A DNA stretch of 41,483 nt from the IMG/VR virus record IMGVR_UViG_3300008261_000047, positions 1 through 41,483 of that record. One strand, given 5' to 3'. The position numbers and the translations under genes are program-made. Positions 4,462 to 26,241 of this stretch are shown one piece after another (the first letter of the stretch is position 1; each line of letters begins with the position of its first letter). Below the pieces are notes generated by a model. It saw only the letters and a list, made by a program, of their open reading frames with translations, did no database searches and had not been told where the DNA came from. This DNA is from a virus.

Positions 4462-4479
4462 GTTTTCAAGAATGAAAAC
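4462..4479. promoter_or_regulatory. Inverted repeat, candidate operator
   Basis: A perfect 7-bp inverted repeat, GTTTTCA-AGAA-TGAAAAC, lies between the leftward promoter and the start of the HTH microprotein gene at 4497. The position between divergent units next to a DNA-binding protein gene suggests an operator for that protein. No binding evidence. Confidence 0.4.
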
Positions 4480-4496
4480 TGGAGTAGTATATTTGT

Positions 4497-5590: not shown

Positions 5591-5595
5591 TAAAC

Positions 5596-6405: not shown

Positions 6406-6428
6406 CTCCGATAAGTAAGGAGTAAAAA

Positions 6429-6902: not shown

Positions 6903-6918
6903 ATAACTACGGAAAACT

Positions 6919-9246
6919 ATGATACGACCTAACCTAGAAATGGATTTCTGCTACAGCGTCTTCGACTCTGTATCCGACAATCAACCCAAACCGAGAACCG
7001 ATTGTTTTACCGCCTTTCGCTCCCGGTTTGATCGTTTCCAACTCCTCCAGCGCAAAGAGAAAGGCAAACTTTTCTCACCTGCAAGATTCACGCCCGGAAC
7101 CACCAGAAAGAGCGAGAACGTGGTGGACGTGTGCGCGATGGTGCTGGATTTCGACAACGGTGTTGACCCGTCCGATTTTATTGACGACTGGAAGGAAAAA
7201 CAGCTTGCCTTCTGGTGGCATACCACCTTCAATCATACCCCCGAGAAGCCAAAATGGAGAGCGATCTTCCCGCTTGCTACCCCGATACCCGCCTACCAAT
7301 GGGCAAGAGCGTGGGAAGCTGCAAGTGAATACCTAGGACACGGACAATGCGATATTTCTGCAAAAAATGCAGACCGAATTTACTATATGCCGTCTCGCCC
7401 TGTTGAAGGCGACAAACATTTATTTCATAGCGAGGCGAACGAAGGTTATCTTTTGGATCCGTCCTTCCTGCTTCGATCGGATGAGAAACCACCGGAAGGA
7501 AAGGGCCGAGTTGGAGACGACTTTGAACTCCGCGCCACCATCAGCGAAATCCTAGAACCCCATGGCTGGATATTTAGCCGGAAATCCGGTCAATTAGAGT
7601 ATTGGGCGCGTCCCGGGAAGCAAAAGGGAGAGATTTCCGCGACGTGGGGCTGGAGAAGTGAAGTCCAAGGCGAACGGTTCTACTGTTTCAGCGACAACGC
7701 CGGAATACCGTGCCGAAACTACCTTACCAAATTCGCGCTCTACACCATGCTCAACCACGGAGGCGACTGGAAAGCCTCTACCGTCTCCCTCTCCAAACAA
7801 GGATACGGCATCCAAGTCGTCGCGGGTGGAACGCCATCTCCTTCTTCTTCCCCTGTCTCGTCTCCTCCGGCGGCCGTTATGTCGGAAAATATAGAGGATT
7901 CGGAGTTCACCGAGCAAGCCAACGCCGATCGCTTGATTGAGCAATACGGACAAGACCTTCGGTACGTCGCCGAACTCAAGCAATGGGCCGTCTGGAACGG
8001 GAAGTTTTGGGATATTGGCTCGAAAGAAGCCTCGGAAAGCAAAGTCATACAAATGGCCGTGGCCTCGGCCCGGGACTTGCAACGGCAAAGCGGACTTGCC
8101 GATAAAAACACCGCTCCCAAAATGTTGAAGTGGGCAATCAAGAGCCAAAACGCCCGGGAACTTAACAACACCGTCAAACTTGCAAGGACTTTGGTCACTA
8201 CGCTTGCAGAGGAATTCGACCAGCAACCCGACTTCCTTAATTGTCAGAACGGAATCGTGGACTTGAGAACGGGCGAAATGCTCCCGCATGACCGGTCAAT
8301 GATGTTCACCCAAATAACAAGGTGTGCAGCCGATTTGGAAAACGTTCGACCGGAACTCTTCAATCAATTCATTGAGCGCGTCATTCCCGACGAAGATACC
8401 CGGAAATATCTTCTCCAGTTCCTCGGGTATATGCTCTCGGGTTCCGTCGCCGAGCAATGTTACGTTTTCTTCTTTGGGGCAACAGGGAATAACGGAAAGT
8501 CTACGCTCACCGAGTTGATTAGCTGGATTTTGGGAGAATACGCCGTCACGATCGAAACCGAGGCTCTCATGCTGAAGAAGTTTGGAAAGTCGAACGAAGG
8601 TGAACTTGCCCAACTACGAGGCCGGCGTTTAGCCGTCGCGCATGAAGTCTCGGACTCCCAACGGCTAGACGAGGAGTTGATTAAACGGCTGACCGGAGGC
8701 GACATTATTAGAGCGAGGCAACTGTACCAAGACCCGCTAAACTTTCGACCGACCGCCAAACTCCTGATGACCGGAAATAACAAACCGCAACTCAGGTCTA
8801 TGGACTCGGCGACTTGGAGACGGATCCGATTGATACCCTTTGAAGTGACCGTCCCGGCTGAAGAGCGCGATGCTAAACTTTACATGAAGTTACGGGCCGA
8901 AGCACCTAAAATTTTAGGTCAGTTAATCAAATGCGGTATCCATGCAGCGAATCACGGGATGGAGCCTAGTAAATTAATGATTAAACATCAGGAGGAGTAC
9001 AAAGAGGAGAATGACTTCCTCGCGGATTTCTTTAATGAGAGGTGCTTGTTCCTGCCAAATTCGGACGCGACGGCGGGCGAACTTCACGCCGAATACAACT
9101 CTTGGGCGAGGGAAACGAGCGGGCATATTTTCAACAGAACCGCGTTCGGACGGATCCTTGGGAGTCGTTTGACCGCGCTCGGGATTTCAAAGCGAAAAGA
9201 TGGGCATGGAATCATCCGATATTACGGGATTTGCCTGAAAAATTAA
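6919..9246 (+). CDS. Replicative primase-helicase (AEP primase + SF3/D5-type helicase), 775 aa
   Basis: The N-terminal domain shows archaeo-eukaryotic primase features: LDFDNG (Asp77, Asp79), HTTFNHTPEKPKWR (residues 101-114) and DISAKNADRIYYMP. After a Ser/Pro-rich linker (near residues 305-320) comes a D5-type middle domain. The helicase has a Walker A GATGNNGKST at 520-529 (Lys527), a following RLAVAHEV strand, and the LLMTGNNKPQL sensor motif at about 615-625. This fusion makes primers and unwinds DNA, and is the core of a self-sufficient phage replisome. The iteron cluster directly downstream is a likely origin. Confidence 0.85.
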   Translation: MIRPNLEMDFCYSVFDSVSDNQPKPRTDCFTAFRSRFDRFQLLQRKEKGKLFSPARFTPGTTRKSENVVDVCAMVLDFDNGVDPSDFIDDWKEKQLAFWWHTTFNHTPEKPKWRAIFPLATPIPAYQWARAWEAASEYLGHGQCDISAKNADRIYYMPSRPVEGDKHLFHSEANEGYLLDPSFLLRSDEKPPEGKGRVGDDFELRATISEILEPHGWIFSRKSGQLEYWARPGKQKGEISATWGWRSEVQGERFYCFSDNAGIPCRNYLTKFALYTMLNHGGDWKASTVSLSKQGYGIQVVAGGTPSPSSSPVSSPPAAVMSENIEDSEFTEQANADRLIEQYGQDLRYVAELKQWAVWNGKFWDIGSKEASESKVIQMAVASARDLQRQSGLADKNTAPKMLKWAIKSQNARELNNTVKLARTLVTTLAEEFDQQPDFLNCQNGIVDLRTGEMLPHDRSMMFTQITRCAADLENVRPELFNQFIERVIPDEDTRKYLLQFLGYMLSGSVAEQCYVFFFGATGNNGKSTLTELISWILGEYAVTIETEALMLKKFGKSNEGELAQLRGRRLAVAHEVSDSQRLDEELIKRLTGGDIIRARQLYQDPLNFRPTAKLLMTGNNKPQLRSMDSATWRRIRLIPFEVTVPAEERDAKLYMKLRAEAPKILGQLIKCGIHAANHGMEPSKLMIKHQEEYKEENDFLADFFNERCLFLPNSDATAGELHAEYNSWARETSGHIFNRTAFGRILGSRLTALGISKRKDGHGIIRYYGICLKN

Positions 9247-9281
9247 AAAATCTGAAAAAAACGTCAAAAATGACCCCCTTG

Positions 9282-9432
9282 TACGGATAGTTTACGGATA
9301 GTTTACGGATAGTTTTACGGATAGTTTTAGACTCAAACGGAGAGTACGGATAGTTTTCTTTATAAAATGGAGATAGTAAATGTGCTTATAGGGGGTTTAT
9401 GCAAAACGCGAAAACTATCCGTAACTCTCCGT
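9282..9432. repeat. Iteron cluster, candidate replication origin
   Basis: The 11-bp unit TACGGATAGTT occurs at 9282, 9293, 9304 and 9316 (the last after one extra T) and again at 9345. An inverted copy, AAAACTATCCGTA, is at 9411-9423. The fifth unit is preceded by ACGGAGAG and the inverted one is followed by its complement, so 9337-9357 and 9411-9432 form a 21-bp inverted repeat with one extra base, spaced by 53 bp of AT-rich sequence. Direct iterons beside the primase-helicase gene are the classic layout of a phage or plasmid origin. Function is inferred. Confidence 0.65.
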
Positions 9433-9513
9433 ACAATGGCAAAAGCGAAGGGGCAAAAATCGGACAGATGCGCCCGAAAAACAAAGAAGGGAAAGAGACA
9501 CAAAGATGATTGA
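9367..9513 (+). CDS. Possible small basic protein, 48 aa
   Basis: An ATG at 9367 opens a 48-codon frame beginning MEIVNVLIGGLCKTRKL and ending in a very basic stretch (ARKTKKGKRHKDD); an inner ATG gives only the basic 25 residues. The stop overlaps the start of the next gene by 8 bp, as in many true pairs here. There is no ribosome site, and the frame runs through the inverted iteron, so it may be chance. Confidence 0.25.
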   Translation: MEIVNVLIGGLCKTRKLSVTLRTMAKAKGQKSDRCARKTKKGKRHKDD

Positions 9514-9901
9514 ACAAAACGACAGAGAGAAATTGAGAACCCAAAAGTTGGGGCTGGTGGAAGAACTGGAGGGTTTTGCCAAAGGCCTAAAACAGATAAC
9601 ACTACTAAAAGAAAAGGGTGAGGAGTTGGAGGATTGGTGCTTCGATGCAAGGAAAGGGTTGAAGGCCGAGCATGAAGTGGTAAAAGCCATTAACCTTTAC
9701 CGAACTAAACTTTCAAACGTGCTGGATGACATCAAATTCCAGTTTGAATACTTGAGCGGGGAGGAACTAGCCAAGGTCATCAAAGCAATGTTCCCACCTA
9801 AACCGCCCAAACCCGAGCCATGGCAACGGCGAACTAAACCGATCAAAGCAAAAGATGAAGAAAGGCCCGAGGATAAAACCCCCGCCTTTTGGGAATTATA
9901 A
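9506..9901 (+). CDS. Hypothetical coiled-coil protein, 131 aa
   Basis: A helical, charged protein with coiled-coil character over about residues 5-75 (LVEELEGFAKGLKQITLLKE), then a proline/lysine-rich stretch (PPKPPKPEPWQRRTKPIKAK) and a final DKTPAFWEL. The last residues look like a short peptide docking motif. It follows the origin candidate and could help load the replisome, but no family is recognised. Confidence 0.6.
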   Translation: MIEQNDREKLRTQKLGLVEELEGFAKGLKQITLLKEKGEELEDWCFDARKGLKAEHEVVKAINLYRTKLSNVLDDIKFQFEYLSGEELAKVIKAMFPPKPPKPEPWQRRTKPIKAKDEERPEDKTPAFWEL

Positions 9902-10014
9902 ATCTGGTGCTGGTTAAGGGGTTTGGGAGTAAAGGGGCCGAAAACAACTAACACCGCCCGTAGGCCGGGGTGAATCTAGTTGAACCTAAGGAGCGTCATA
10001 GTTAACGAAAGAAG

Positions 10015-10497
10015 ATGAAAAGGATGACGCTTCAGGACGTAGTGGGGTTTTACTACGAATCGGTGTTCGGTGGCTCCAAGGCCGTTCGACCTCGCGGGTA
10101 CGAAACGAGAGGAGGCCAAGACGTCAATGGAACCAACCGAACACTTGCTAGGCTCTTTGTCGAATCGGTAGATGATTATGAAGTTGTCAAAGAGCGGTTT
10201 CACCAATGGTTCAACGGCTCGGAGGCTCTATGCCCCCAAGTCGAAGCTTTCTTGGATACGGCGAAAAGAAAGCTCAGGGAAACGCCCGTGTTCTTCGCGC
10301 TGGAAGACGATTCTAGGCCGACCACAACTGTTGACGCGGTGAAAGTGCCGACCAACGTATTGATGCGCGAGAAACGAGCATGGAGGCGCAAAAATCCCGG
10401 CCTACCAGCCGATTTCTTTGCGCCGTCGTTTAGATCGTGGAGAGATAAAGATGGCCGGTGGCTTTGCTACGAAATAGACCTGCCACCAGCCAACTAA
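10015..10497 (+). CDS. Hypothetical protein, 160 aa
   Basis: Starts MKRMTLQDVVGFYYESVFGG; a second ATG is three codons later. It is basic, with many Trp and Arg in the C-terminal third (REKRAWRRKNPGLPADFFAP, then SWRDKDGRWLCYEIDLPPAN). No catalytic pattern is visible. It is the last gene of the rightward early unit and runs toward the convergent leftward unit; the stop codon lies in CCAACTAACAA, a sequence also found in the 47-bp repeats at 13.3 kb. Confidence 0.6.
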   Translation: MKRMTLQDVVGFYYESVFGGSKAVRPRGYETRGGQDVNGTNRTLARLFVESVDDYEVVKERFHQWFNGSEALCPQVEAFLDTAKRKLRETPVFFALEDDSRPTTTVDAVKVPTNVLMREKRAWRRKNPGLPADFFAPSFRSWRDKDGRWLCYEIDLPPAN

Positions 10498-10499
10498 CA

Positions 10500-10517
10500 A
10501 GACCAGCACTTAGGTCT
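10500..10517. terminator. Weak bidirectional hairpin between convergent units
   Basis: AGACC-AGCACTTA-GGTCT forms a 5-bp stem directly after the rightward gene and across the end of the leftward 38-residue gene. Only short T-poor tails follow on either strand, so if it terminates at all it is weak. No better terminator is visible in the gap. Confidence 0.25.
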
Positions 10518-10626
10518 GATTCTTCATCGCTTCTTTTATGAGCCGAATGATGGTCGGTCTTATACCGCCATTGGCATGGAGCCATTCGACCAACTCTTCG
10601 GGTAGCCAAAATGCTATCTGTCTCAC
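10510..10626 (-). CDS. Small ribbon-helix-helix-like protein, 38 aa
   Basis: GTG start at 10626 overlapping the TGA of the upstream gene (GTGA). The product reads RQIAFWLPEELVEWLHANGG, then IRPTIIRLIKEAMKNQT. A short beta strand followed by two helices, with the LPEELVEWL and S/T-IIRLIxEAM pattern, is the ribbon-helix-helix form used by small dimeric repressors such as Arc. It is the last gene of the second leftward unit. The start codon is GTG and the gene is short, so it is easily missed. Confidence 0.5.
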   Translation of the reverse strand: MRQIAFWLPEELVEWLHANGGIRPTIIRLIKEAMKNQT

Positions 10627-10811
10627 TTAAGTAACACCCCCACAAAAATGACAATGGCAAAGAAGAAAAACATAGCTATCCCTCCGAGCCAATCCATGTC
10701 GGACGTCGGCTGGAAGTCCCGAGTAATGTATGCTTCGACCTGCTCGGGCGTCCACGTCGGATGCGCCCGCTGGACGCTTTGGTGCAAGGCGATTCTCTCT
10801 GGAGTAGTCAC
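10623..10811 (-). CDS. Small membrane protein, 62 aa
   Basis: GTG start at 10811 in a GTGA overlap. The first 40 residues are polar (MTTPERIALHQSVQRAHPTW, where the helix PEQVEAYI follows), and residues about 41-61 are one hydrophobic helix with four consecutive Phe (MFFFFAIVIFVGVLL). This is a tail-anchored layout with the N-terminus likely in the cytoplasm. Function unknown. Confidence 0.55.
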   Translation of the reverse strand: MTTPERIALHQSVQRAHPTWTPEQVEAYITRDFQPTSDMDWLGGIAMFFFFAIVIFVGVLLK

Positions 10812-11221
10812 TTAGCACCTCCGACCAAGTTTAGCTGCTCTAGAAGGCGGGGATACGCTTCGTCGCTTGGCATCAAAGCATACGGGTTGCGCGGGTCTAT
10901 CGCCCAACGCAATGACCCCGCCGTATCAAAAACAAGATTGTCGTTTAGCCCGTGGCAATGCTCCATTGCCCAATCCTCGGCCTTGCGGTACAAATCCCGC
11001 AAGCCGTCGGTCGAACGGGCAATTTCGACCCAACGGCCACTATCGTGCCGATACTGAAGGGATGAGAGCGTATACGACCGCGCAATGTCTAGTTTGCGCC
11101 GTTCCTTGACAACGCGAAGGCCGTGGTCGAAGCGGTCGTAATAGGCGACGTAGCGAACAAACGAGGCAAGGTCACTAAAGACCTCGCCGTCGGAGTTAAC
11201 AACTGTTTGACGCAACTTCAT
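10808..11221 (-). CDS. Hypothetical protein, 137 aa
   Basis: I chose the ATG at 11221, which overlaps the TGA of the upstream gene (ATGA); five more in-frame codons lie upstream. The product starts MKLRQTVVNSDGEVFSDLA, is mixed alpha/beta and rich in Arg and Tyr, and includes YRHDSGRWVEIARSTDGLRD. No family recognised. Fully embedded in the coupled run of genes. Confidence 0.6.
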   Translation of the reverse strand: MKLRQTVVNSDGEVFSDLASFVRYVAYYDRFDHGLRVVKERRKLDIARSYTLSSLQYRHDSGRWVEIARSTDGLRDLYRKAEDWAMEHCHGLNDNLVFDTAGSLRWAIDPRNPYALMPSDEAYPRLLEQLNLVGGAK

Positions 11222-11784
11222 TTCTCCACCGTCCAATTGAACTTCAGGTCGAAGTTAGCAAGGATTTTGGAATAGTTGGTGGTATAACCGTCGGCATCCT
11301 TAACAACAGGATGTACGGCGCAACAAATCCTTGGGTTGCTGACATCACCGTCCAAAAATTCCACGCTATCAAAGAAATTCAGGTCAAACTTTAAAGTTCC
11401 CCACCAGTAGTCTCCGTTACCCAAAATCCCATAGACCGACTCAGGCAACTCTTTAATAATTTGAGGCAATATGGATTCAATCTCTTGTTGGATTGGCGCG
11501 TCATCATCCCCCGCCTCCCAATTAACAACCGCAAGGGTGCAGGTATGAATTGGAGGTCGCTCGGTCGCTCCGTAACGGCTGACCTTGAAGAAATCTTTAT
11601 ATTGGCATCCACGGTCAATATATTCATATGACCATGAACCTTGCAGATTCTCAAGCATATCTTCGATAGCTTCGGCGTCGGTGACCCCGTGGAACGGGTT
11701 GTAGGGTTGCCAAAGCACCTCGCACAGTTCCCTATAATCTTTGACCTTAATGGTCTCCCGAATATCAGGCGTGTAAATAGCCAT
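11218..11784 (-). CDS. Hypothetical acidic protein, 188 aa
   Basis: Starts MAIYTPDIRETIKVKDYREL. It is acidic with many aromatic residues, a GNGDYWWGTLKFDLNFFD segment near the middle, and two Cys in ICCAVHP. No membrane helix or catalytic motif. Its ATG overlaps the last base of the zinc-ribbon gene upstream. Unknown function; larger than its neighbours and probably a main product of this unit. Confidence 0.6.
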   Translation of the reverse strand: MAIYTPDIRETIKVKDYRELCEVLWQPYNPFHGVTDAEAIEDMLENLQGSWSYEYIDRGCQYKDFFKVSRYGATERPPIHTCTLAVVNWEAGDDDAPIQQEIESILPQIIKELPESVYGILGNGDYWWGTLKFDLNFFDSVEFLDGDVSNPRICCAVHPVVKDADGYTTNYSKILANFDLKFNWTVEK

Positions 11785-12029
11785 TACCAGCTACCTCCCA
11801 TCAACTGCTGGTTTAAGTTGCAAATTGCTTCTTCCTGTTGGACTTGGAATTCCCATTCGCGATAGCATTGCATACAGATCGCTGGACGGTTTTTCGCCCA
11901 AGCAACGCTTGACTTTGCAACGATGTTTGCACCGCACTTGCAGGTGCTATCGAACCGCGCCGTGATGACGCGGAAGTGGAAGAAATTAGGTTGCCCGTTC
12001 ATACGGGTGTATCGGTTGTATCTTCTCAT
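11784..12029 (-). CDS. Zinc-ribbon protein, 81 aa
   Basis: Basic N-terminus (MRRYNRYTRMNGQPNFFHFR), then a CKCG knuckle and, about 22 residues later, CMQC, giving a four-cysteine zinc ribbon. The C-terminus is Gln-rich. A good ribosome site (AAGGA) precedes ATG 12029, and a hairpin (12043-12058) stands immediately in front of that site. The 79-bp leader with alternative hairpins makes this the regulated entry point of the second half of the leftward unit. Confidence 0.65.
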   Translation of the reverse strand: MRRYNRYTRMNGQPNFFHFRVITARFDSTCKCGANIVAKSSVAWAKNRPAICMQCYREWEFQVQQEEAICNLNQQLMGGSW

Positions 12030-12042
12030 AAGAGTTCCTTAG

Positions 12043-12104
12043 CTGACGGCCTCGTCAGACGCATCCAAAATGCGCTACGGCCCCGTTGCAGGGCCGTTTC
12101 GGCC
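12043..12104 (-). promoter_or_regulatory. Leader with mutually exclusive hairpins
   Basis: Read on the minus strand, GGCCG-AAA-CGGCC (12104 to 12092) and ACGGCCC-TGCAACG-GGGCCGT (12097 to 12077) share the ACGGCC segment and cannot form together. A third perfect hairpin, CTGACG-AGGC-CGTCAG (12058 to 12043), ends a few bases before the ribosome site of the zinc-ribbon gene. There is no T-run, so simple termination is unlikely. Translational or processing control is more plausible. Confidence 0.45.
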
Positions 12105-12108
12105 TAGG

Positions 12109-12357
12109 TCACAATACGGCGCGTATATGCGCCAATATCTCCTTATAGCTGTATGGCTTGACCAAGAAAGCCTCGTCAATATAGAATGACCAGTCCAACT
12201 GTTCTTGGAGGTCATCAATCGAATCGCCCGTCTTCTCTGAATACCTTTCAAGGTACTGATTCGATGCAATATCCCAAATCTCACCGTTGATTCTAAAATC
12301 GGTATACACGCGGTGCTGGATGCCCGTATCGGGGCAGGTCACCAGTTGTCTAGGCAT
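12109..12357 (-). CDS. Hypothetical protein, 82 aa
   Basis: I chose the ATG at 12357, overlapping the stop of the upstream gene by 8 bp, with GGAG a few bases before it. The product starts MPRQLVTCPDTGIQHRVYTD and continues with acidic helices (SIDDLQEQLDWSFYIDEAFL). A single Cys; no motif recognised. The last gene before the hairpin leader. Confidence 0.6.
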   Translation of the reverse strand: MPRQLVTCPDTGIQHRVYTDFRINGEIWDIASNQYLERYSEKTGDSIDDLQEQLDWSFYIDEAFLVKPYSYKEILAHIRAVL

Positions 12358-12550
12358 TTTCCACTCCAGTTGCAATTTCAGTTACTACTTCTACTTCTAG
12401 CAACCAATAAACGCCGTATTCCCGCCCGTCGCGAGCCGAGTAGTAATCCATGATGGAATCCTCCGTATTACAAAAATGAAAGGTCGGTTTCATAGCCTTC
12501 CAGCCTCCGTTCCTGTAAACAAACTTGGTTGCCTTATGTCGCTTAACCAT
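12350..12550 (-). CDS. Hypothetical protein, 66 aa
   Basis: Basic N-terminal half (MVKRHKATKFVYRNGGWKAM) and acidic C-terminal half with YYSARDGREYGVYWLLEVE. Start ATG shares bases with the upstream TAA (TAATG). No recognisable domain. Confidence 0.55.
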   Translation of the reverse strand: MVKRHKATKFVYRNGGWKAMKPTFHFCNTEDSIMDYYSARDGREYGVYWLLEVEVVTEIATGVENA

Positions 12551-12816
12551 TACCTGACCTCCCTTAAATCAGCAAGTGAGCAAACCCAATATGCGCCCTC
12601 ATCCGAAGTGATGAGAACGTAAGGACGGGTCGGCTGTTGAACGACCCTAACCACCAGACGAAGGGACTTGTCCCCAATTCGGCATAAGGTTTCAAATTCC
12701 GACCCTCCCCCCTCAGGGAGAGGGGTGATGGAAGTAATGTCGGCTTCGGACTCGTATCCGTTCTCCTCAAACAAGAAGTTCTCTGCTCCAAGCCGAGCAG
12801 TCATTAAGAAGTCCAT
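12550..12816 (-). CDS. Hypothetical protein, 88 aa
   Basis: Starts MDFLMTARLGAENFLFEENG and is beta-rich, with a Gly loop (PLPEGGGSEFETL), RLVVRVVQQPTRPYVLITSD and a C-terminal WVCSLADLREVR. It overlaps its neighbours by one to four bases. No family recognised. Confidence 0.55.
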   Translation of the reverse strand: MDFLMTARLGAENFLFEENGYESEADITSITPLPEGGGSEFETLCRIGDKSLRLVVRVVQQPTRPYVLITSDEGAYWVCSLADLREVR

Positions 12817-13190
12817 TATGCTGACCTCCTGTAATGCTTTGCCAACCGTTGGAAATCAGCTTTCCACTCCTTAGCGGTGGAAGGGTAAATGTTGAACGAG
12901 AGGCCAATCAACTTGGTCAGACCCTCAACCGACCACTCGCAATACTGATGCTCTGGAAGTGAAATGAATTCGCTGTATTGGGTGACCCGTCGCAAAATGA
13001 CGGGGATGGTCTTTTCAGAAATCTCCCGAACGCCAATGACCATGAACAGATTGCCAAGGTTGAAAATCCTCCAAGACCAATAAGTCTCACCCGTTTGGTA
13101 ACCGTTGATTGGGTCATTTTGCTTAGCTACGAAAGTGAGAAACTCGCGTCCCTCCGTTGTCATTTTGCTTGTATCGAAATGCAATGCCAT
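12816..13190 (-). CDS. Hypothetical protein, 124 aa; first gene of the second leftward unit
   Basis: ATG at 13190 preceded by GGAG at good spacing and, 40 bp further, by a very good promoter. The product starts MALHFDTSKMTTEGREFLTF, and has a mixed alpha/beta pattern with a basic C-terminus (WKADFQRLAKHYRRSA). No motif recognised. Being first behind the strongest promoter in this part of the genome, it should be abundant early. Confidence 0.6.
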   Translation of the reverse strand: MALHFDTSKMTTEGREFLTFVAKQNDPINGYQTGETYWSWRIFNLGNLFMVIGVREISEKTIPVILRRVTQYSEFISLPEHQYCEWSVEGLTKLIGLSFNIYPSTAKEWKADFQRLAKHYRRSA

Positions 13191-13229
13191 TTTGTGTCTC
13201 CGAGGTTGTTTCGGTTAACCTCATCTCTG

Positions 13230-13258
13230 ATTATACACTAGTCTATTGGCATATACAA
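13230..13258 (-). promoter_or_regulatory. Strong sigma70-type promoter of the second leftward unit
   Basis: On the minus strand: -35 TTGTAT (13253-13258), 17-bp spacer, perfect -10 TATAAT (13230-13235). The start point would be near 13223, giving a 33-base leader with a GGAG ribosome site. The first 47-bp repeat begins 5 bp upstream of the -35 box, so the repeats are placed like activator or repressor sites. Confidence 0.7.
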
Positions 13259-13262
13259 CAGG

Positions 13263-13437
13263 GAACTAAACCCCGTGAAATACTAGGTTGAACTCCAACT
13301 AACAATAGGGAACTAAACCCCGTGAACCAATCAGTTGAACACCAACTAACAACATCGAACTAAACCCCATGAACCAATCAGTTGAACACCAACTAACAAC
13401 ATCGAACTAAACCCCGCGAAGCAATCAGTTGAACTCA
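13263..13437. repeat. 47-bp tandem repeats, family A (four copies)
   Basis: The anchor GAACTAAACCCC starts at 13263, 13310, 13357 and 13404, an exact 47-bp period. Copies 1-3 are full and copy 4 ends after about 34 bp. Each carries AGTTG-AACxC-CAACT, a small dyad (GGTTG in copy 1). They lie in the 673-bp stretch 13191-13863 that holds no gene. There are no spacers, so this is not a CRISPR array. They look like protein-binding iterons serving the adjacent promoter or an origin. Confidence 0.85.
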
Positions 13438-13521
13438 TTTTAGGACTTCTTGCCTATCGTTGCTTGGTCATTTTGCTCCCCCTTTGCATAGGAGTATCAC
13501 TTATGACTACGCGCATGAGGC

Positions 13522-13659
13522 CCATAGGGGAGTCATAGGGGAAGTCTATAGAATGCGCCCGACCGAGGCCATAGGGGAGGCATAGGGGAAGTCTATAGAA
13601 TGCGCCCGACCGAGGCCATAGGGGAAGGTATAGGGGAGGTTATACCCGACCGACCGAGG
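13522..13659. repeat. 47-bp tandem repeats, family B (two copies plus a divergent third)
   Basis: The anchor CCATAGGGGA starts at 13522, 13569 and 13616. Copies 1 and 2 are 47 bp and differ at only one or two bases; copy 3 keeps the first part and then diverges (TATAGGGGAGGTTATA). CATAGGGGA also occurs twice inside each unit. The sequence is unrelated to family A, but the period is the same. The end of each unit (CCGACCGAGG) leads into the next repeat family. Confidence 0.8.
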
Positions 13660-13763
13660 ACCGACCGCTCGAGGACCGACCGAGGACCGACCGCTCGAGG
13701 ACCGACCGCTCGAGGACCGACCGCTCCAGGACGTTGGACGCTCCAGGACGTTGGACGCTCCAG
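13655..13763. repeat. GGACCGACCG repeat array, left flank of cassette
   Basis: CGAGGACCGACCGCT (15 bp) starts at 13655, 13681, 13696 and 13711, with an 11-bp truncated copy at 13670, then a related 17-bp unit CCAGGACGTTGGACGCT at 13726 and 13743. The CTCGAG junctions are palindromic. The same core recurs in the array at 15521-15679, in the same orientation, on the other side of a three-gene cassette. Confidence 0.85.
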
Positions 13764-13830
13764 ATATTTTAAATGTAAATTCGCTGCTAACTTCCCAACG
13801 ATCTAGACAAAATAGGTTCAAAATGTATAG

Positions 13831-13857
13831 TTGACTAGACTAGTTCTATGGTATAAT
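13831..13857 (+). promoter_or_regulatory. Extended -10 promoter of the cassette
   Basis: TTGACT (13831-13836) and TATAAT (13852-13857) are 15 bp apart, and TG one base before the -10 box makes an extended -10 element, which compensates for the short spacer. Seven bases downstream is the ATG at 13864, so transcription would begin at or next to the start codon. Confidence 0.65.
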
Positions 13858-13863
13858 GAAGTT

Positions 13864-14199
13864 ATGGCACACGACCATAAAACCAACACCGCGGAATTTA
13901 CCGCCAACCTCGTCAAACTGTTAGCCGACCGAAAAGCGCAGGTTATCACCGAGTACAAACGACTCTGCAACGAGTACAACGCCGGGATGCAACTTAGAGA
14001 CCAACTCTACCTGCACATTGAAGACCTCGCCACCATGCCCGCAAACGCTCATGACGGATTGTACGTTAAATGGCACAGCGAAGCAGTTGAACAGCACCGC
14101 GCCCTTTCTAACCGCTTGGACGAAATGAGAGAAGAGATAGACGCGCTCGACAGGGAACTCAGCGCGCTTAATCAACTCAGCGTGAGAGGTTCAAAGTGA
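13864..14199 (+). CDS. Coiled-coil protein, cassette gene 1, 111 aa
   Basis: ATG at 13864 lies seven bases after a perfect TATAAT and has no ribosome site, so it may be translated from a leaderless message. The product starts MAHDHKTNTAEFTANL and is almost entirely helical, with a coiled coil near the C-terminus (ALSNRLDEMREEIDALDREL). Its TGA overlaps the next ATG. GCGC tetramers are frequent, as in the other two cassette genes. Function unknown; an oligomerising or partner-binding protein is the most that can be said. Confidence 0.65.
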   Translation: MAHDHKTNTAEFTANLVKLLADRKAQVITEYKRLCNEYNAGMQLRDQLYLHIEDLATMPANAHDGLYVKWHSEAVEQHRALSNRLDEMREEIDALDRELSALNQLSVRGSK

Positions 14200-14648
14200 A
14201 AATCCAACAGTTCATGACCGAGGCGGACGCCAAGGAAATATACATTCAGTTCTTGGACGAAAACTTTCCAGTCATTCAAATACTTGGAATGACCTATCGC
14301 GTAGCCTACGCGCTAGAACGAACCGACCCTACAGCGTTTCGCTGTTTCTTCATTGAATGGATGAATGCGGAAAATATCTGCACCGAATTCTGGGACTTCC
14401 AACCACGAAAGTTAGACTTTCCAGACGGATTAACGCGAAAAATCGCACCGTTATCCTACCAGCGCGCCTTAGAACACGCGCGCGACAGGTTCCATACATG
14501 GCAAATTGAAATACGGTCGCCATACGTTCGCTTAGATGACGCCATTTACTATTACATAGATGACCGCGAATACCTCGCACTATCAGACGATGAATTGCTA
14601 GAAGCAGTTATGATTGCCACCGACTTTCCAGAGGAAAACAACCGATGA
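14196..14648 (+). CDS. Hypothetical protein, cassette gene 2, 150 aa
   Basis: Starts MKIQQFMTEADAKEIYIQFL with ATGA coupling to gene 1, and ends EENNR with an overlap into gene 3. It is mixed alpha/beta, with many aromatic residues (RCFFIEWMNAENICTEFWDF) and an acidic C-terminal helix (LSDDELLEAVMIATDF). No recognised domain. The three coupled genes form one transcription unit bounded by a promoter and a terminator. Confidence 0.65.
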   Translation: MKIQQFMTEADAKEIYIQFLDENFPVIQILGMTYRVAYALERTDPTAFRCFFIEWMNAENICTEFWDFQPRKLDFPDGLTRKIAPLSYQRALEHARDRFHTWQIEIRSPYVRLDDAIYYYIDDREYLALSDDELLEAVMIATDFPEENNR

Positions 14649-15430
14649 AAACCACCACCACCACCAAACCCGCGCCCGCCACCAAACCCGTTAAACCCAG
14701 AAAACCCCGCCTTAAGGCGGGCATACTATGGCAAGGCGCGTCACCAATTGACGGCGCGCCTATCGTTTGTATCCTTACAATCGGCTCCAAAAATTCTAAA
14801 ACCGGCGCGATGGCGCAAACTTGGATTATTCGAGCCGACATGCACCCCGTGGACGCGCTCAAGACAGGCGAAGACGCGTCAATTTGTGGCACTTGCCCTC
14901 ACCGCCCGACCGAGCTAGGCGACCTCGCACTTAGCAAGTTATATCGCACTTGCTATGTTGCAACGATGGCTCCGAGCGCAGTCTATAAAGCTTTCAAGGC
15001 GGGCAAGTATCCGACCCTCGAGCTCCAAGAAACCGCCGACGCGTTAGCGGGCAGATCGCTACGGCTCGGTAGCTACGGCGACCCCGCGACCGTACCGCTA
15101 GAAGTATGGCGCGCCATTATTGGCAGATGCTCCACCACGGGATATACCCACCAATGGCGCGAATGCGACCCTAACTACTCTGAATTCCTTATGGCTTCGG
15201 CTGACACGCCCGCCGACGTTATCACCGCGACCGCCAACGGGTGGCGCGTATTTTACGCCGACCGCGACCCCGCGCCAATAATTGGCGGTCGTAAATTGGC
15301 ACTATGCCCCGCTTCAAAGGAGGCGGGCAAACGTACCACTTGCGCCAATTGTTTGGCTTGCGGCGGGAATCGTATACAGCCAAACGAATTTAAACCGCGC
15401 GCTTCACTTATTCGAATTGCCCTACACTAA
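14645..15430 (+). CDS. Cysteine-rich conserved phage/plasmid protein, cassette gene 3, 261 aa
   Basis: After a Thr/Pro/Lys-rich basic N-terminus the protein has GILWQGASPIDGAPIVCI, then CGTCPHR, TCYVATMAPSAVYKAFKAG, RLGSYGDPATVP, TGYTHQWRECDP, and near the C-terminus CPASKEAGKRTTC and CxxCLACGG. I remember proteins with this same motif order from many environmental phages and plasmids, all uncharacterised (possibly the family called DUF7227, not certain). The Cys clusters suggest a metal or iron-sulphur site and the pattern faintly recalls phage radical-SAM-like proteins. The gene is strongly enriched in GCGC compared with the structural genes, a sign of separate origin. Confidence 0.65.
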   Translation: MKTTTTTKPAPATKPVKPRKPRLKAGILWQGASPIDGAPIVCILTIGSKNSKTGAMAQTWIIRADMHPVDALKTGEDASICGTCPHRPTELGDLALSKLYRTCYVATMAPSAVYKAFKAGKYPTLELQETADALAGRSLRLGSYGDPATVPLEVWRAIIGRCSTTGYTHQWRECDPNYSEFLMASADTPADVITATANGWRVFYADRDPAPIIGGRKLALCPASKEAGKRTTCANCLACGGNRIQPNEFKPRASLIRIALH

Positions 15431-15456
15431 CTCAAAGCTTATAACCGACCCCAGCA

Positions 15457-15482
15457 ACCCGGCAATTGCCGGGTATTTTATT
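15457..15482 (+). terminator. Rho-independent terminator of the cassette
   Basis: ACCCGGC-AATT-GCCGGGT is a perfect 7-bp stem followed by TATTTTATT, 27 bp after the third cassette gene. It closes the unit that starts at the 13831-13857 promoter. Confidence 0.8.
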
Positions 15483-15520
15483 GCCAATCTGGCCGCCCCG
15501 TTCCAATATCTAAAATAGAT

Positions 15521-15679
15521 CGAGGACCAGGACCGAGGACCAACCGACCGCTCGAGGACCAACCGACCGCTCGAGGACCGACCGACCGACAATTGGACCG
15601 CCAATTGGACCGCTCGAGGACCGCTCGAGGACCGACCGACCGACAATTGGACCGCCAATTGGACCGCCAATTGGACCCC
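15521..15679. repeat. GGACCGACCG repeat array, right flank of cassette
   Basis: CGAGGACC-type units begin at 15521, 15553, 15572, 15615 and 15626. Two of them (15572 and 15626) extend into about 40-bp copies containing CAATTGGACCG twice, followed by further CAATTGGACC units. The core CGAGGACCGACCG is shared with the array at 13655-13763 and has the same orientation, so the cassette lies between direct repeats. Apparent open frames through this array are by-products of the repeats. Confidence 0.85.
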
Positions 15680-16022
15680 AAAAAAAAATTTCGCGTTTTC
15701 CTACGCTACGCTCAGAAAACGCTGAGAGGTTGAATCCTATACCCTGCTCATATGCCAACTATCTAATAACCGGTACGTTTATAAATGGCTTAAACAGTAA
15801 CCTGAAAAAGTTTAAACTACCCTATACAGCCGAAGATGCTACTTTATTAGACCCCAATATGATAGCAATAAATTTTGATCCGTAGGCGTTTTTCAAAAGT
15901 GAAAACGCTGCTGGTGGTGGTTCAAAACAACGATCGGGCCTACCCCTAAAAGTTGAAAAATCAAAAATGGGGGTGGGGTATAAAATTTTTGAAATTTTGG
16001 AACCAATTTGACCAAGTTCAAG
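15680..16022. other. Gene-free AT-rich stretch with two similar hairpins
   Basis: No gene is visible. GCGTTTTC and GAAAACGC flank 14 bp at 15693-15722 (perfect 8-bp arms), and a second GCGTTTTTC / GTGAAAACGC hairpin is at 15887-15909. The second half is AT-rich with A- and T-runs leading into the late promoter. The paired hairpins could be regulator sites for the late unit. Confidence 0.4.
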
Positions 16023-16028
16023 TATAAT
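16023..16028 (+). promoter_or_regulatory. Candidate late promoter (-10 box)
   Basis: A perfect TATAAT at 16023-16028 lies 117 bp before the endolysin gene and behind a long AT-rich stretch. A good -35 at 16-18 bp is not visible; TTGACC is only 9 bp away. This fits a promoter that needs an activator, as is common for phage late genes. Confidence 0.45.
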
Positions 16029-16085
16029 GTAATGGATCTTGGGCGTTTTTGTGTCCGCTCTTGGTTGGTGTGTGTGTCCACCATT

Positions 16086-16126
16086 GGGGCTTGCAGGGTT
16101 TTCGGTTTCTCTGCGGCCCCGTTTTT
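16086..16126 (+). terminator. Terminator-like hairpin in the late leader
   Basis: GGGGC-TT-GCAG ... CTGC-G-GCCCC forms a 9-bp two-part stem (16086-16120) followed by GTTTTTATT, a normal rho-independent terminator placed between the late promoter and the first late gene. Upstream GTGTCC copies near 16050 and 16073 could pair with GACAC at 16130-16134 as an alternative structure. The arrangement suggests antitermination or attenuation of late genes. Confidence 0.6.
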
Positions 16127-16144
16127 ATTGACACGGGACTCAAA

Positions 16145-16675
16145 ATGACTACGCAAGAAGCAATCACCAAGGTAAGAGAGATTTTGCTTGCCCGGTACGC
16201 CAATTATTGGCAACTGGAGGGCAAAGAGCGCGTGGTGCTTGCTGCAAGTGTGCTTGCGGACGATATTAAGGTCAGGGAGACGTCAAACAACCACGGTGAG
16301 TGGGTCGAAGCCATACTTGGAGCGGTTAATTTGCCCGGTGGCTACCCTTGGTGCGCGGCGTTAATAGAATTTTGTTGTGATGTTGCGAAATATGAAGCGG
16401 GGCCAAGTGATCGGGCAAGTGCAGCGGTTGATTCATGGTATCAATGGGCCAAAGCCAACGGTCGAATCACCGATAAACCCGAGCGAGGTTATTTGTGTCT
16501 TTGGCGACGGGCTGGAGGCAATCATATCGGCATTATCAACCAAGCAGGACGAGCAATTTTAGATAGCATCGAAGGAAACACGACCCCGGGTGTAGTGGGC
16601 AACCAGCGCGACGGGGGCGGGTGTTACCGGAGAACGCGGTCTAAGACGTCATGGACGCACTTCATTGCGCTTTAA
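16145..16675 (+). CDS. CHAP/NlpC-like endolysin, 176 aa
   Basis: I chose ATG 16145; the open frame extends upstream through the terminator leader, which is not plausible coding. A single cysteine-peptidase domain of the CHAP kind is visible: PWCAALIEF (Cys70), GNHIGIINQAG (His127) and DSIEGNT (Glu143, Asn145), followed by GGGCYRR. Enzymes of this type cut peptide bonds in peptidoglycan. There is no signal peptide, so a holin should deliver it. It is the first gene of the late unit, followed by a membrane protein that may be that holin. Confidence 0.75.
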   Translation: MTTQEAITKVREILLARYANYWQLEGKERVVLAASVLADDIKVRETSNNHGEWVEAILGAVNLPGGYPWCAALIEFCCDVAKYEAGPSDRASAAVDSWYQWAKANGRITDKPERGYLCLWRRAGGNHIGIINQAGRAILDSIEGNTTPGVVGNQRDGGGCYRRTRSKTSWTHFIAL

Positions 16676-16692
16676 CCTTTTATTGATGCCCT

Positions 16693-16938
16693 ATGCCTAC
16701 TCCTCCCGACCAAAGTCCAGCAAACAGCTTTGAGCTGTTCCAGTTTTTTAGTAATCTCATCAATTCCGTGTGGGGATGGTTGGTTCCAATGGTAGGTGGA
16801 GTGTTCCACATGGGCAAACTGCACCAGAAGATTAACCAACTAGAGATTGATAGGGACGCGCTAAGACAAGTTCCCCAACAAATATCTGATTTGTCCGCTA
16901 AGGTGGACATTTTGCTAGAAGACCGCCGAAGGGGATAA
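16693..16938 (+). CDS. Membrane plus coiled-coil protein, possible holin, 81 aa
   Basis: Residues about 14-38 (FELFQFFSNLINSVWGWLVP and onward) are hydrophobic and can span the membrane; the remainder is a charged coiled coil (HQKINQLEIDRDALRQVPQQ) ending in RRRG. Location directly after the endolysin supports a lysis role. One-helix holins with a polar coiled tail exist, but a tail or spanin-like role is also possible. Confidence 0.5.
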   Translation: MPTPPDQSPANSFELFQFFSNLINSVWGWLVPMVGGVFHMGKLHQKINQLEIDRDALRQVPQQISDLSAKVDILLEDRRRG

Positions 16939-16939
16939 C

Positions 16940-17803
16940 TTGAAACACTTTGTATCCGAATTCCATACCGATTCGCTAAGTGATCGGGTGCGGATAGGGC
17001 TGATGTCGGATCTTCACTTTGGTAGTTCATCGCTCATCAAAAAAGCACTCAAGGCCGACTTTGAGTACATGGTAGAGAATGACTGCACCATTGGCATCAA
17101 CGGTGACGTGTTTGACCTCGTATTGCCGTCAGATCTCAAGCGGTTCGATTTGGACGCGCTAGATAGGGCAATGATTCAGCAGGGGGTCAAACCCATTGAT
17201 GCGGCCATAGAGATTGCCTACGAATTTATTAAACCGTATGCCCACAAGATTAAATTCATTGGCATAGGCAACCACGAAGCCCACGTCTACAAGCGTCACC
17301 ACGTTGACGTGCTATCTATCCTGCTTTACCGGCTCAATCAGTTGCCAAACGTCAAGATAGAGAATGGTGGGTGGTGCGGGTACTGGAATATCAGGCTGAT
17401 TCGGGATACCAAGAGGAGCAATTACCTCATCTACCGTCACCACGGTGCGGGAGGGGCGGCCCCTATGACCAAAGGAATGATTGATTTTCAGCGGATGATG
17501 ATTTGGCAGGGTGACGTTGACGCCATTTGGATTGGTCACAAACACAATCGAATATCGGATCCGGGTGCAACAAAGGTGGTGTACGATAACCGTACCAACA
17601 CCCACAAGACCAAAAAAGTCATTTGTGTTATGACCGGGAGCTACCTTTCGACCTACGGGGAGGGTGAGGCCGCTCCAAGTTACGCCATGGGCTGGAATTT
17701 GGCTCCTCAGATGTCGGGTGGCGCGATTCTGGAGCTAAAGATGGCAGAAGAGCAGGTACAGTACAAAAAGTGTTTGCGGATTGATTCCAGACTGATACAA
17801 TAG
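16940..17803 (+). CDS. Metallophosphoesterase, 287 aa
   Basis: All signature motifs of the calcineurin-like phosphoesterase fold are visible: SDLHFG (Asp24, His26), NGDVFD (Asp56), GNHEA (Asn111, His112), RHHGAGG (His167/168) and IGHKHN (His200, His202). The start is TTG at 16940, two bases after the previous TAA, with GGGG just upstream; the next ATG would remove residues just before the first metal motif. Such enzymes cut phosphodiesters of nucleotides, RNA or DNA. Phages carry them next to lysis or packaging genes, but the substrate here is unknown. Confidence 0.8.
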   Translation: MKHFVSEFHTDSLSDRVRIGLMSDLHFGSSSLIKKALKADFEYMVENDCTIGINGDVFDLVLPSDLKRFDLDALDRAMIQQGVKPIDAAIEIAYEFIKPYAHKIKFIGIGNHEAHVYKRHHVDVLSILLYRLNQLPNVKIENGGWCGYWNIRLIRDTKRSNYLIYRHHGAGGAAPMTKGMIDFQRMMIWQGDVDAIWIGHKHNRISDPGATKVVYDNRTNTHKTKKVICVMTGSYLSTYGEGEAAPSYAMGWNLAPQMSGGAILELKMAEEQVQYKKCLRIDSRLIQ

Positions 17804-17812
17804 GAGAAACAA

Positions 17813-18001
17813 ATGAACGAATTAGTAAAAAAGATCATTGCCGGAGCGGTTTCCGGTTTCATTTCGGCGGTAATGGTAGATTTGGACAAGTGGAAGCAGT
17901 CGGCGTTTGACAAGTTTGACTGGAAACTTGCCATCAAGCGGTATTTCATGGGCGCGGTAACCGGGGCGGTTGCAGCCGCTGGTTTCGGTAACTTGGTATG
18001 A
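17813..18001 (+). CDS. Small membrane-active protein, 62 aa
   Basis: Two weakly hydrophobic Gly/Ala-rich segments (IIAGAVSGFISAVMV and FMGAVTGAVAAAGFGNLV) flank an amphipathic, charged middle. A GGAGAAAC ribosome site precedes the ATG. It may be a second holin-type protein or a small-helix structural protein; its place between the phosphoesterase and terminase genes does not decide. Confidence 0.5.
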   Translation: MNELVKKIIAGAVSGFISAVMVDLDKWKQSAFDKFDWKLAIKRYFMGAVTGAVAAAGFGNLV

Positions 18002-18195
18002 ACAAGAAAGCTAATTTTCGGTTCGGTATCAAGGTTGGAGGCCCATTGTTTCCAAACATGGGCATCATGGTGTTCAAGATAGACGATGACCTGATTCCTG
18101 ACATTGTTAAGTATGTCAAAGCAATCAAACATCTTCTTATACTAGGCGGCCAAGGCGAGATTGCCGACAAAATCGTTGCCGAAATTCGTCTCTGA
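17998..18195 (+). CDS. Hypothetical protein, 65 aa
   Basis: Starts MNKKANFRFGIKVGGPLFPN with ATGA coupling to the previous gene. It has a basic N-terminus, a beta pattern, and a C-terminal helix (LIPDIVKYVKAIKHLLILGG). No family recognised. Confidence 0.55.
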   Translation: MNKKANFRFGIKVGGPLFPNMGIMVFKIDDDLIPDIVKYVKAIKHLLILGGQGEIADKIVAEIRL

Positions 18196-18211
18196 GACGT
18201 CTAATAATTGT

Positions 18212-18703
18212 ATGCCTGTTTATTCTGACAAATTAGCGCAAACGATCTGCACCCGAATGATTATGGGTGAGTCGGTACTTAGCATCTGCAAGGATAAGGA
18301 TATGCCAAGCGCGGATACCATTTACCGGTGGGCGTTTAACAAAGAGCATCCGTTTGCCGAGTTGTACAAGCGGGCAAGGGAGATCCAAGCCGAAAAATAC
18401 GTTGACGAGATTATGACCATTGCCGACGATTCCTCGGAGGACTACAAGGAAATTAACGGCAAGCGGGTAGTAGACAACGAGAATATCCAGCGGGCCAGAT
18501 TGCGAGTAGATACAAGGAAATGGGTGGCGTGTAAAGTGTTGCCAAAGATCTACGGCGAAAAATCTCAAGTAGACTTAACAACAGATGGCAAAGCGATCGA
18601 ATCCTTTACAGATGAAGAAAGACTTGCTAGAATGTCTGCCATACTTGACCAAGCAAGAAAGAGAAGAGCTGGACAGGTTACTGAGAGCGAATCCGACGTT
18701 TAG
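18212..18703 (+). CDS. terS: Terminase small subunit, 163 aa
   Basis: I chose ATG 18212 (MPVYSDKLAQTICTRMIMGE). The N-terminal half is a DNA-binding HTH of the homeodomain type used by small terminases: SVLSICKDKDMPSADTIYRW. A central helical part (REIQAEKYVDEIMTIADDSS) and VDNENIQRARLRVDTRKW, the typical terminase-small stretch, follow. It recognises the packaging site and feeds DNA to the large subunit, whose gene overlaps its 3' end by about 120 bp. Confidence 0.8.
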   Translation: MPVYSDKLAQTICTRMIMGESVLSICKDKDMPSADTIYRWAFNKEHPFAELYKRAREIQAEKYVDEIMTIADDSSEDYKEINGKRVVDNENIQRARLRVDTRKWVACKVLPKIYGEKSQVDLTTDGKAIESFTDEERLARMSAILDQARKRRAGQVTESESDV

Positions 18704-20027
18704 TGAATGGTACAAGACAACCATTCCAGCGTACTACGGCCCCGCTAGACACATAGACTACATTTGCAAAATCATTGACCAAGTGGTCAGCGGCGATCTT
18801 CGCCGGGTGACGTTATCCATGCCACCCGGCCACGCCAAAACCGATACGGTGACCGTTAGGTTACCGATTTATTGGGGGCTTAGGAACCCCAATGACGCCA
18901 TTGTTTTCACCGGATACAACCAAGAGTTTGCCGAGAAAAACTTGTCCCGCCCGACAAGAAATCTAGCCGACGATCTAGGCGTTCTGGACAAAAGTTCCAA
19001 TGCCATGTCGGATTGGCACTTGAAGAACGGCGCAAGGCTAGTGGCTCGCGGCGTAGGGAACGCTCCGACGGGGATTAACCCGATTAGCTTGCTGGTTTGC
19101 GACGACCCTATCAATTCTAGGGAACAGGCAGAAAGCGAAGCAATCAGAAACATTATTTGGGATTGGTGGACGGGAAGTATTGTCCAACGGTTCTGGCCTC
19201 AAACCCGCGTCTTTGTCATTGCTACAAGGTGGCATGAAGACGATCTTATTGGCCGAATCAAGGCAGAAGGGGATCCAAGCTGGACACACATTAACCTTCC
19301 TGCAATCGCAACAGAGGATGACGTTCTAGGCAGGTTGCCGGGTGAGGCGTTATGGCCGGAGCAGAAACCAGTAGACTTTTTAGAGGCTCAACGAGCCGAA
19401 ATGGGGGACTACAACTTTCAGAGTTTGTTCCAAGGATCTCCGACCGCTCGGGGCGGCTCGTTGTTTCAGATTAACCAGTTCAAGTTTATATCCGAGGCCG
19501 AGTTACCGCCAATGGTGTACGAGGTTAGGAAATGGGACATTGCAGCGTCCGTCGGCAAAGGTGACTACACCGCCGGAGTCAAAATTGGCAGAGACGCGGA
19601 AGGAAGATATTACGTCTTAGATTGTGTACGCTTCCAAGAGGGAACGGACGAGCGAAACAAGAAGATGCTTCTTACCGCCAAACGGGATGGAACAAAAGTT
19701 AAAATCATTGTTCCGGAAGATCCGGGAAGCGCGGGCAAAGACCAAGCGTTGGGATTCATCCGAATGTTTTCCGGCTACAAGGTAACCAAGGTAAGGGAAA
19801 CAGGAAGCAAGACAACAAGGGCCGATACTTTTGCCTCGCAAGTAAACGCCGGGAATGTTACAATAGTAAAAGGGGCATGGAATCGGGACTACGTTGAAGA
19901 GCATAGGACGTTTCCAAACGGGAAGAACGACGACATGGTAGACGCTTCAAGCGGAGCGTTTTCCGACATAGCATTGAAGTTTAAGAAGCAACTACGGTTG
20001 CCAACTAAGCAAAGAACGTACATTTGA
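18585..20027 (+). CDS. terL: Terminase large subunit, 480 aa
   Basis: The ATPase domain has a Walker A variant MPPGHAKT (79-86) and a Walker B SLLVCDDP (Asp173-174), followed by IATRWHEDDLIGRI, a classic TerL segment. The nuclease half has KWDIAAS...DYTAG, IVPEDPGSAGKDQA and NDDMVDASSGAF. It pumps DNA into the prohead and cuts it. Two starts are possible, 18585 and 18612, both inside the small-subunit gene and without a clear ribosome site, so translational coupling is likely. Confidence 0.9.
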   Translation: MAKRSNPLQMKKDLLECLPYLTKQEREELDRLLRANPTFSEWYKTTIPAYYGPARHIDYICKIIDQVVSGDLRRVTLSMPPGHAKTDTVTVRLPIYWGLRNPNDAIVFTGYNQEFAEKNLSRPTRNLADDLGVLDKSSNAMSDWHLKNGARLVARGVGNAPTGINPISLLVCDDPINSREQAESEAIRNIIWDWWTGSIVQRFWPQTRVFVIATRWHEDDLIGRIKAEGDPSWTHINLPAIATEDDVLGRLPGEALWPEQKPVDFLEAQRAEMGDYNFQSLFQGSPTARGGSLFQINQFKFISEAELPPMVYEVRKWDIAASVGKGDYTAGVKIGRDAEGRYYVLDCVRFQEGTDERNKKMLLTAKRDGTKVKIIVPEDPGSAGKDQALGFIRMFSGYKVTKVRETGSKTTRADTFASQVNAGNVTIVKGAWNRDYVEEHRTFPNGKNDDMVDASSGAFSDIALKFKKQLRLPTKQRTYI

Positions 20028-20028
20028 T

Positions 20029-21561: not shown

Positions 21562-21580
21562 CAATTTGACCAAACGGTCA

Positions 21581-21600
21581 AGCCACCTCCTGCGGTGGCT
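21581..21600 (+). promoter_or_regulatory. Intergenic hairpin after the portal gene
   Basis: AGCCACC-TCCTGC-GGTGGCT is a perfect 7-bp stem with no T-run, standing just before the next gene. It may be an RNA-processing or stability element that adjusts the ratio of portal to downstream head proteins. Confidence 0.35.
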
Positions 21601-21617
21601 AAATGCAGAGAAAAATC

Positions 21618-22025
21618 ATGGCTAATAAAACAAAAGCACAAATCATTGAAGACGCTGAAAACGCGGCATTGCAAGTTGCGGAAGAAAAAGCATACGATTG
21701 GGTAGCAGCAAAACGAAGAGGATTCGTTTGCAACTACGATCCGATTACCAACACGTTTGACGGCCCCGAGGACGCACCTGTTTTCTACGGCCAACCGTAT
21801 GAGGGTAACCCGTATGAAGACCATCTTGTTTCAACTGAACTCGGTGGCGTTAAGGTGAAGTGGTTGGAATGGGACGAAGAAACCCATTGCAACGTATACC
21901 TTCGCGTTGTCGAAAAGAAAAAGGGAAAGAAGCAAGAAGCGGTTCTTGACAATGCACCGGGCGTCACTCCGGGGGTTACTCTTGTAGACCTTGCAAACGC
22001 GGAAGCAGAGGCCGACAATGAGTGA
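21618..22025 (+). CDS. Head-module protein of unknown role, 135 aa
   Basis: I prefer ATG 21618 (MANKTKAQIIEDAENAALQV); five in-frame codons upstream also begin with ATG at 21603. The N-terminus is a helix, the middle is Tyr/Pro-rich (VFYGQPYEGNPYEDHL), then a basic stretch EKKKGKKQE and an acidic end. Position between portal and scaffold suggests a small head or capsid-assembly protein. No family recognised. Confidence 0.6.
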   Translation: MANKTKAQIIEDAENAALQVAEEKAYDWVAAKRRGFVCNYDPITNTFDGPEDAPVFYGQPYEGNPYEDHLVSTELGGVKVKWLEWDEETHCNVYLRVVEKKKGKKQEAVLDNAPGVTPGVTLVDLANAEAEADNE

Positions 22026-22620: not shown

Positions 22621-22704
22621 AATGTCTTAGGACAGACTCGTCATCCCCGCTCCCACGGCGGGTCAACTTGCGTGGAGACGACTTAATGGAGAAACAATAA
22701 AACT

Positions 22705-23721: not shown

Positions 23722-23722
23722 A

Positions 23723-24109: not shown

Positions 24110-24119
24110 CGTTTGAATC

Positions 24120-26240: not shown

Positions 26241-26241
26241 A

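Follow-up and report, generated by a model that had tools for sequence, protein, structure and literature searches.

The window, i.e. the whole stretch of DNA analysed here (IMG/VR record IMGVR_UViG_3300008261_000047), appears to be a complete virus record; it is 41,483 bases long and its ends share a 114-bp direct repeat. Its terminase is 43% identical to the terminase of Microcystis phage Mae-JY24 and avoidance of GGWCC is common to both phages (3 sites in Mae-JY24 vs 146 expected), and therefore the host is probably Microcystis or a related bloom cyanobacterium. The ORFs scanned in the window included no recognisable integrase, and neither tRNA genes nor Rfam matches were found. At the starts of two adjacent tail-region genes (35911-37122 and 37655-39043) lie the two copies of a 287-bp duplication (35908-36194 and 37652-37938, 87% identical). 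Separately, a structural gene contains a glycine-rich repeat region (27767-27895), the counterpart of which in the relative L049 (19192-19560) holds 102-bp tandem repeats.

The subject of this work is an array-cassette-array unit on the + strand (13646-15681, limits as drawn in this analysis). Its left neighbour is the leftward operon, the first gene of which occupies 12816-13190 on the - strand, and its right neighbour is the lysis/packaging operon, where the endolysin gene (16145-16675) is followed by genes for a small protein, a phosphoesterase and the terminases. The cassette consists of gene A (13864-14199, 111 aa, coiled-coil-like), gene B (14196-14648, 150 aa) and gene C (14645-15430, 261 aa, PHROG 2554), all on the + strand and each overlapping the next by 4 bp (GTGA and ATGA).

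Arrays and transcription signals of the unit

The left array (13646-13763, + strand) is composed of CTCGAGGACCGACCG-type units followed by CTCCAGGACGTTGGACG units, and contains five copies of GGACC, three of CTCGAG and two of CCAGG. The right array (15520-15681, + strand) contains GGACC twelve times, CTCGAG four times and CAATTG five times. The 13-mer core CGAGGACCGACCG is found on the + strand of both. All five copies of the left array (13655-13723) are exact, whereas on the right (15534-15638) two are exact and three have one or two mismatches. This adds up to 10 matches at no more than two mismatches, when shuffles gave 0.99 ± 1.05 and never reached 10. The longest exact repeat common to both arrays is 24 bp long (at 13660 and 15562), which bears out the claim of an earlier note on this DNA that arrays of one core in the same orientation flank the unit. 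Its further claim that the unit has its own promoter, three coupled genes and its own terminator agrees with the 4-bp overlaps and with the sequence signals described below.

The cassette promoter (13831-13857, + strand) consists of TTGACT at 13831 and TGGTATAAT with a -10 box at 13852, the spacer being 15 nt long. The -10 is of the extended type, (TGG)TATAAT, and since the ATG of gene A (13864) stands only 6 bases past it, the cassette mRNA is predicted to be nearly leaderless. A promoter scan restricted to spacers of 16-18 nt overlooked this promoter, given its 15-nt spacer and nearly leaderless start. Downstream of gene C, a putative intrinsic terminator hairpin, ACCCGGCAATTGCCGGGT, is located at 15457-15474 (+ strand), within a region (15440-15490) with a folding z of -3.0.

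The leftward operon has a divergent promoter (13218-13250, - strand) that contains TAGACTAG and TATAAT. The window has two copies of the 8-base TAGACTAG and no more, one at 13836-13843 in the cassette promoter and the other at 13238-13245 (- strand) in the leftward promoter, and in L049 it is likewise found only at the two divergent promoters. Given its presence at both, TAGACTAG is a candidate operator or activator site, and a common regulator may govern the two promoters. Judging from this shared element, the cassette appears to be tied to a phage-type control signal and is hence not wholly alien. Between the leftward promoter and the cassette lie the backbone tandem arrays (13255-13645), with 47-bp repeats at 13255-13434 and TAGGGGA repeats at 13517-13644; their counterparts in L049 differ in sequence (CCTAGGGGAAGG). 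Short tandem arrays are present in the relative L116 too.

Presence and alleles of the cassette among relatives

The relatives compared were all IMG/VR contigs, namely L049 (contig 3300011113_000485), the near-identical L046 (L101/L046), and the more distant L116, L117 and L118. L049 has flanks closely matching those of the window, with nucleotide identities of 80% over 12548-13514 (967 bp) and 90% over 15811-27671 (about 11,900 bp), and carries the trio at the same site in the same gene order and with the same B/C overlap, its proteins being 38-39% (A), 30-33% (B) and 55% (C) identical to those of the window. It also keeps the promoter arrangement, with a TTGACTAGACTAG start, and the terminator core CCCGGCAATTGCCGGG, in a nearly identical hairpin, and in both alleles a GACCG-rich leader lies just upstream of the promoter. 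The CGAGGACCGACCG core and the right-hand array are both absent from L049, and therefore a cassette can occupy the site without these arrays, which leaves the earlier proposal that it arrived by recombination through the repeats unsupported. L046, which is 96% identical to the window, has the right array with different copy numbers, and its contig ends inside it.

L116, L117 and L118 are syntenic around the endolysin (65-67% identity; in L118 the terminase is 60% and the primase 41% identical). In all three the cassette is absent from the syntenic site, an absence observed only in phages whose backbone proteins are about 60-67% identical to those of the window, and in L118 merely 73 bp separate the ORFs neighbouring the site. 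Gene C is found nowhere in the records examined for these three phages, which are partial. As L049 carries a diverged trio and L116, L117 and L118 have an empty site, the cassette varies among relatives both in presence and in allele.

A search for the array core in IMG/VR returned 37 contigs with scattered single matches, except for the near-identical L101/L046, and we rejected a wider array family since the copies found elsewhere were single and scattered. The region had no DNA similarity to phage or plasmid records, and among these collections the array itself turned up only in that one near-identical relative.

Composition and restriction-site avoidance

The tetranucleotide comparison that had been proposed for the cassette gave a clear answer, as its genes are the top outlier of the genome, their distance being exceeded by none of the 364 other windows tested; in L049, one of 161 windows was more distant than the cassette genes. 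GCGC, roughly estimated in the earlier note at about 16 in the third gene against four or five in the portal gene, was counted 16 times in gene C, 4 in the portal gene and 2 in the terminase gene.

GGWCC, CCWGG and about 25 six-base palindromes are avoided across the backbone (1-13200 and 15700-41483), and the relatives behave likewise. GGACC and CCAGG are the first and second most avoided backbone 5-mers. GGACC/GGTCC is absent from the backbone of the window (67 expected), CCAGG occurs there once (67 expected) and each of the six-base palindromes occurs once or not at all (about 10 expected). Synonymous-codon shuffles of ten backbone genes would contain 33 GGACC and 33 CCAGG, none of which is present, and the backbone of L049 has one GGACC instead of 32. 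Genomes of Microcystis encode about 16 restriction systems each (PMC8262939), and avoidance of palindromes in the backbone is as expected for a phage that faces many restriction enzymes.

The cassette region does not follow this rule. GGACC occurs inside it 17 times in the window and 16 times in L049, where 12 copies are within the three genes themselves. When the avoided words were defined from the backbones of the relatives alone, 39 were counted in 13200-15700 vs 29 in the other 39 kb, with counts that change sharply at the borders of the unit; the 47-bp and TAGGGGA arrays to its left respect the avoidance, whereas the unit does not. The cassette outside the arrays carries TCATGA, TTCGAA, CTCGAG, GAGCTC, ACGCGT and GCGCGC. 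Tandem copying multiplies the words in the arrays, so that the repeated copies are not independent of one another. After correction for this, the arrays resemble sequence that is under no avoidance, with only the 6-mers of the right array going beyond shuffles. The idea that the arrays are specially built of forbidden words was mostly rejected, as there was no clear 5-mer excess over shuffles.

The cassette also shows an avoidance of its own. GGCC is missing from the six cassette genes of the two alleles (window 13864-15430, L049 5370-7029; 0 vs 10.7 expected in synonymous shuffles) while its count in the backbone is normal, so that the donor perhaps had a different avoidance regime. A lack of GGCC general to gene-C relatives was rejected, since it is only mild among them (52 observed vs 72 expected over 23 genes). 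The enriched words differ by allele, GCGC/CGCG in one and CCGG/GGACC in the other.

The cassette proteins

Gene A has a relative in L049 (38-39% protein identity) and none beyond it in IMG/VR and phage records. The N-terminal domain of gene B belongs to a small phage protein family (ILG..Y..A..L...DP.AFR..F.EW), and this domain is found in further phages, while the leftward operon of L116 encodes gene-B-like proteins; the matches of gene B in IMG/VR and phage records are N-terminal only and cover at most 40% of the query. None of the three proteins was assigned to a DNA-binding family, and PADLOC defence models matched none of them. The searches run did not find the trio in phages other than L049, and therefore the role of A and B, as possible helpers of gene C, is a guess.

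Gene C matches the PHROG 2554 profile over residues 23-243 (E 4.2e-66). This family is found in 148 phage records (Mycobacterium, Klebsiella, Gordonia, Microcystis and others), and relatives of gene C are carried by six plasmids, mostly cyanobacterial, with at least 590 matches in viral contigs. Mycobacterium phage RhynO gp74 and Caulobacter phage S2B gp064c resemble it over 220 residues, including seven cysteines and TGYTHQ. At the 116 other loci of the family that we checked, unlike in the cassette, neither gene A nor gene B is nearby. Alignment of 29 members showed C81, C84, C103, C221, C233, C236 and C239 to be invariant or nearly so, as are TGYTHQ and R140-G-x-Y-G-(D/E)-P.

No solved relative of gene C was found by sequence, and its predicted structure, which is confident (pLDDT 88), had no significant match in the PDB with Foldseek alone. 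With VIA-align, the top seven rows were all radical SAM enzymes (QueE, viperin-like, TYW1, SkfB and MoaA), the best score being a Z of only 5.1 for QueE, which is weak and within the range of common arrangements. The model shares cysteine-rich loops with these enzymes and has G-Y-G-D-P-x3-P in a position comparable to GGEP-x3-P, but it lacks the canonical CX3CX2C motif and has C-X2-C-X18-C instead (Cys 81, 84 and 103). Non-canonical cysteine spacings exist among radical SAM proteins, for example in some QueE. Fold matches in BFVD were to DUF7227 and, weakly (E 9e-3), to Gene product 88 proteins, which are alike in predicted fold and in a C-terminal CPAS..C..C..C region; the gene C sequence scores 17.1 bits against DUF7227 (PF23872), below the gathering cut-off of 27, and 18 of the 29 gene C relatives match it weakly. 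Nothing relevant on PHROG 2554, DUF7227 or Gene product 88 was found in the literature. On the basis of the invariant cysteines, the radical-SAM-like model and the DUF7227 and Gene product 88 folds, gene C probably encodes an iron-sulphur protein, and this may be a radical SAM enzyme that carries a second cluster. C81, C84 and C103 would ligate one cluster and C221, C233, C236 and C239 the second, and GxYGDPxxxP would stand in place of the radical SAM GGEP motif.

Several sequenced phages have their gene-C relative no more than about 4 kb from a genome end, and in Caulobacter phage S2B it is close to the terminal repeat; such relatives near an end are often surrounded by small genes. Early host-takeover genes are commonly found in positions of this kind.

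Discussion

We consider it reasonably probable that the unit is a moron, an exchangeable operon gained by lateral transfer at a site that has the leftward early operon on one side and the lysis/packaging operon on the other. The flanking genes are conserved while the unit between them comes and goes among relatives, it has sequence signals for its own promoter and terminator and its composition is foreign, and the earlier reading of the unit as a moron is therefore upheld by that composition, by the empty site in three more distant relatives and by the diverged allele in L049. Variable presence at one site, foreign composition and independent transcription signals are all features of phage morons; the cassette differs from these in having three genes, flanking tandem arrays and a control element in common with the leftward promoter.

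The main competitor, which we regard as unlikely though well worth considering, is that the operon is a resident one, acquired once long ago, which diverged in an arms race while its composition drifted by slippage. The identical layout of gene order, promoter and terminator hairpin in both alleles would be expected of such an operon, as would the gene-B-like proteins of the L116 leftward operon and the TAGACTAG element that the cassette and leftward promoters share. Against this, flanks that are 90% identical enclose cassette proteins of 30-55% identity, the unit escapes an avoidance obeyed everywhere else in the genome, tail genes included, and each allele has enriched words of its own. That the locus reflects chance or an assembly artefact is scarcely credible: the L046 contig does break inside the right array, as repeats often cause, but an independent assembly has the same right array, the core copy number far exceeds shuffles and the trio is present in L049.

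As to the arrays, they most likely came in with the imported DNA, as a part of it, and were enlarged by slippage. They could instead be functional clusters of GACCG binding sites for a cassette or host factor, acting in control, replication or partition, which we find improbable. GACCG is strongly biased to one strand in the unit (33 vs 2 over 13646-15681) and in its L049 counterpart (16 vs 0 over 5150-7076) and near parity elsewhere (about 45 vs 41), the GACCG-rich leader precedes the promoter in both alleles, and the cumulative GC skew of the window has its minimum at 15855; however, the units vary in length and sequence, the right array is missing from L049, and the cassette proteins belong to no recognised DNA-binding family. 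It is more doubtful still that the arrays are restriction-site islands, where cutting by the host promotes exchange or loss of the cassette via the 24-bp direct repeats. The recurrence of GGACC, CCAGG and CTCGAG in the arrays and the exchanged or highly diverged alleles at the site are in line with this, but the arrays are no richer in avoided words than shuffles, save for the 6-mers of the right array, so that most of these words can be put down simply to the absence of avoidance, and no relative was found with a deletion between the arrays. Marginally less probable again is the related notion of restriction sites clustered at one exchange locus, where host enzymes would cut much as homing endonucleases do and so cause an early counter-defence cassette to be swapped or lost.

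Taking the unit as a moron, its three genes most likely form an immediate-early operon for host takeover or anti-defence; this function, read from the sequence, is plausible because the promoter is of an early type and because of where gene-C relatives lie in other phages. Host RNA polymerase would recognise the sigma-70-type extended -10 promoter and transcribe the cassette as soon as infection begins, and the three proteins would be made together from the nearly leaderless message. Gene C would then chemically alter or bind a host target in takeover or counter-defence, assisted by A and B.

These observations suggest that restriction-site avoidance can mark the origin of DNA in phage genomes, the cassette being the only stretch of this cyanophage where purged sites survive. 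The reason why such sites are tolerated would bear on the movement of phages between strains with many restriction systems. Moreover, gene C provides a common uncharacterised phage family with a testable idea, that of an iron-sulphur, radical-SAM-like early protein.
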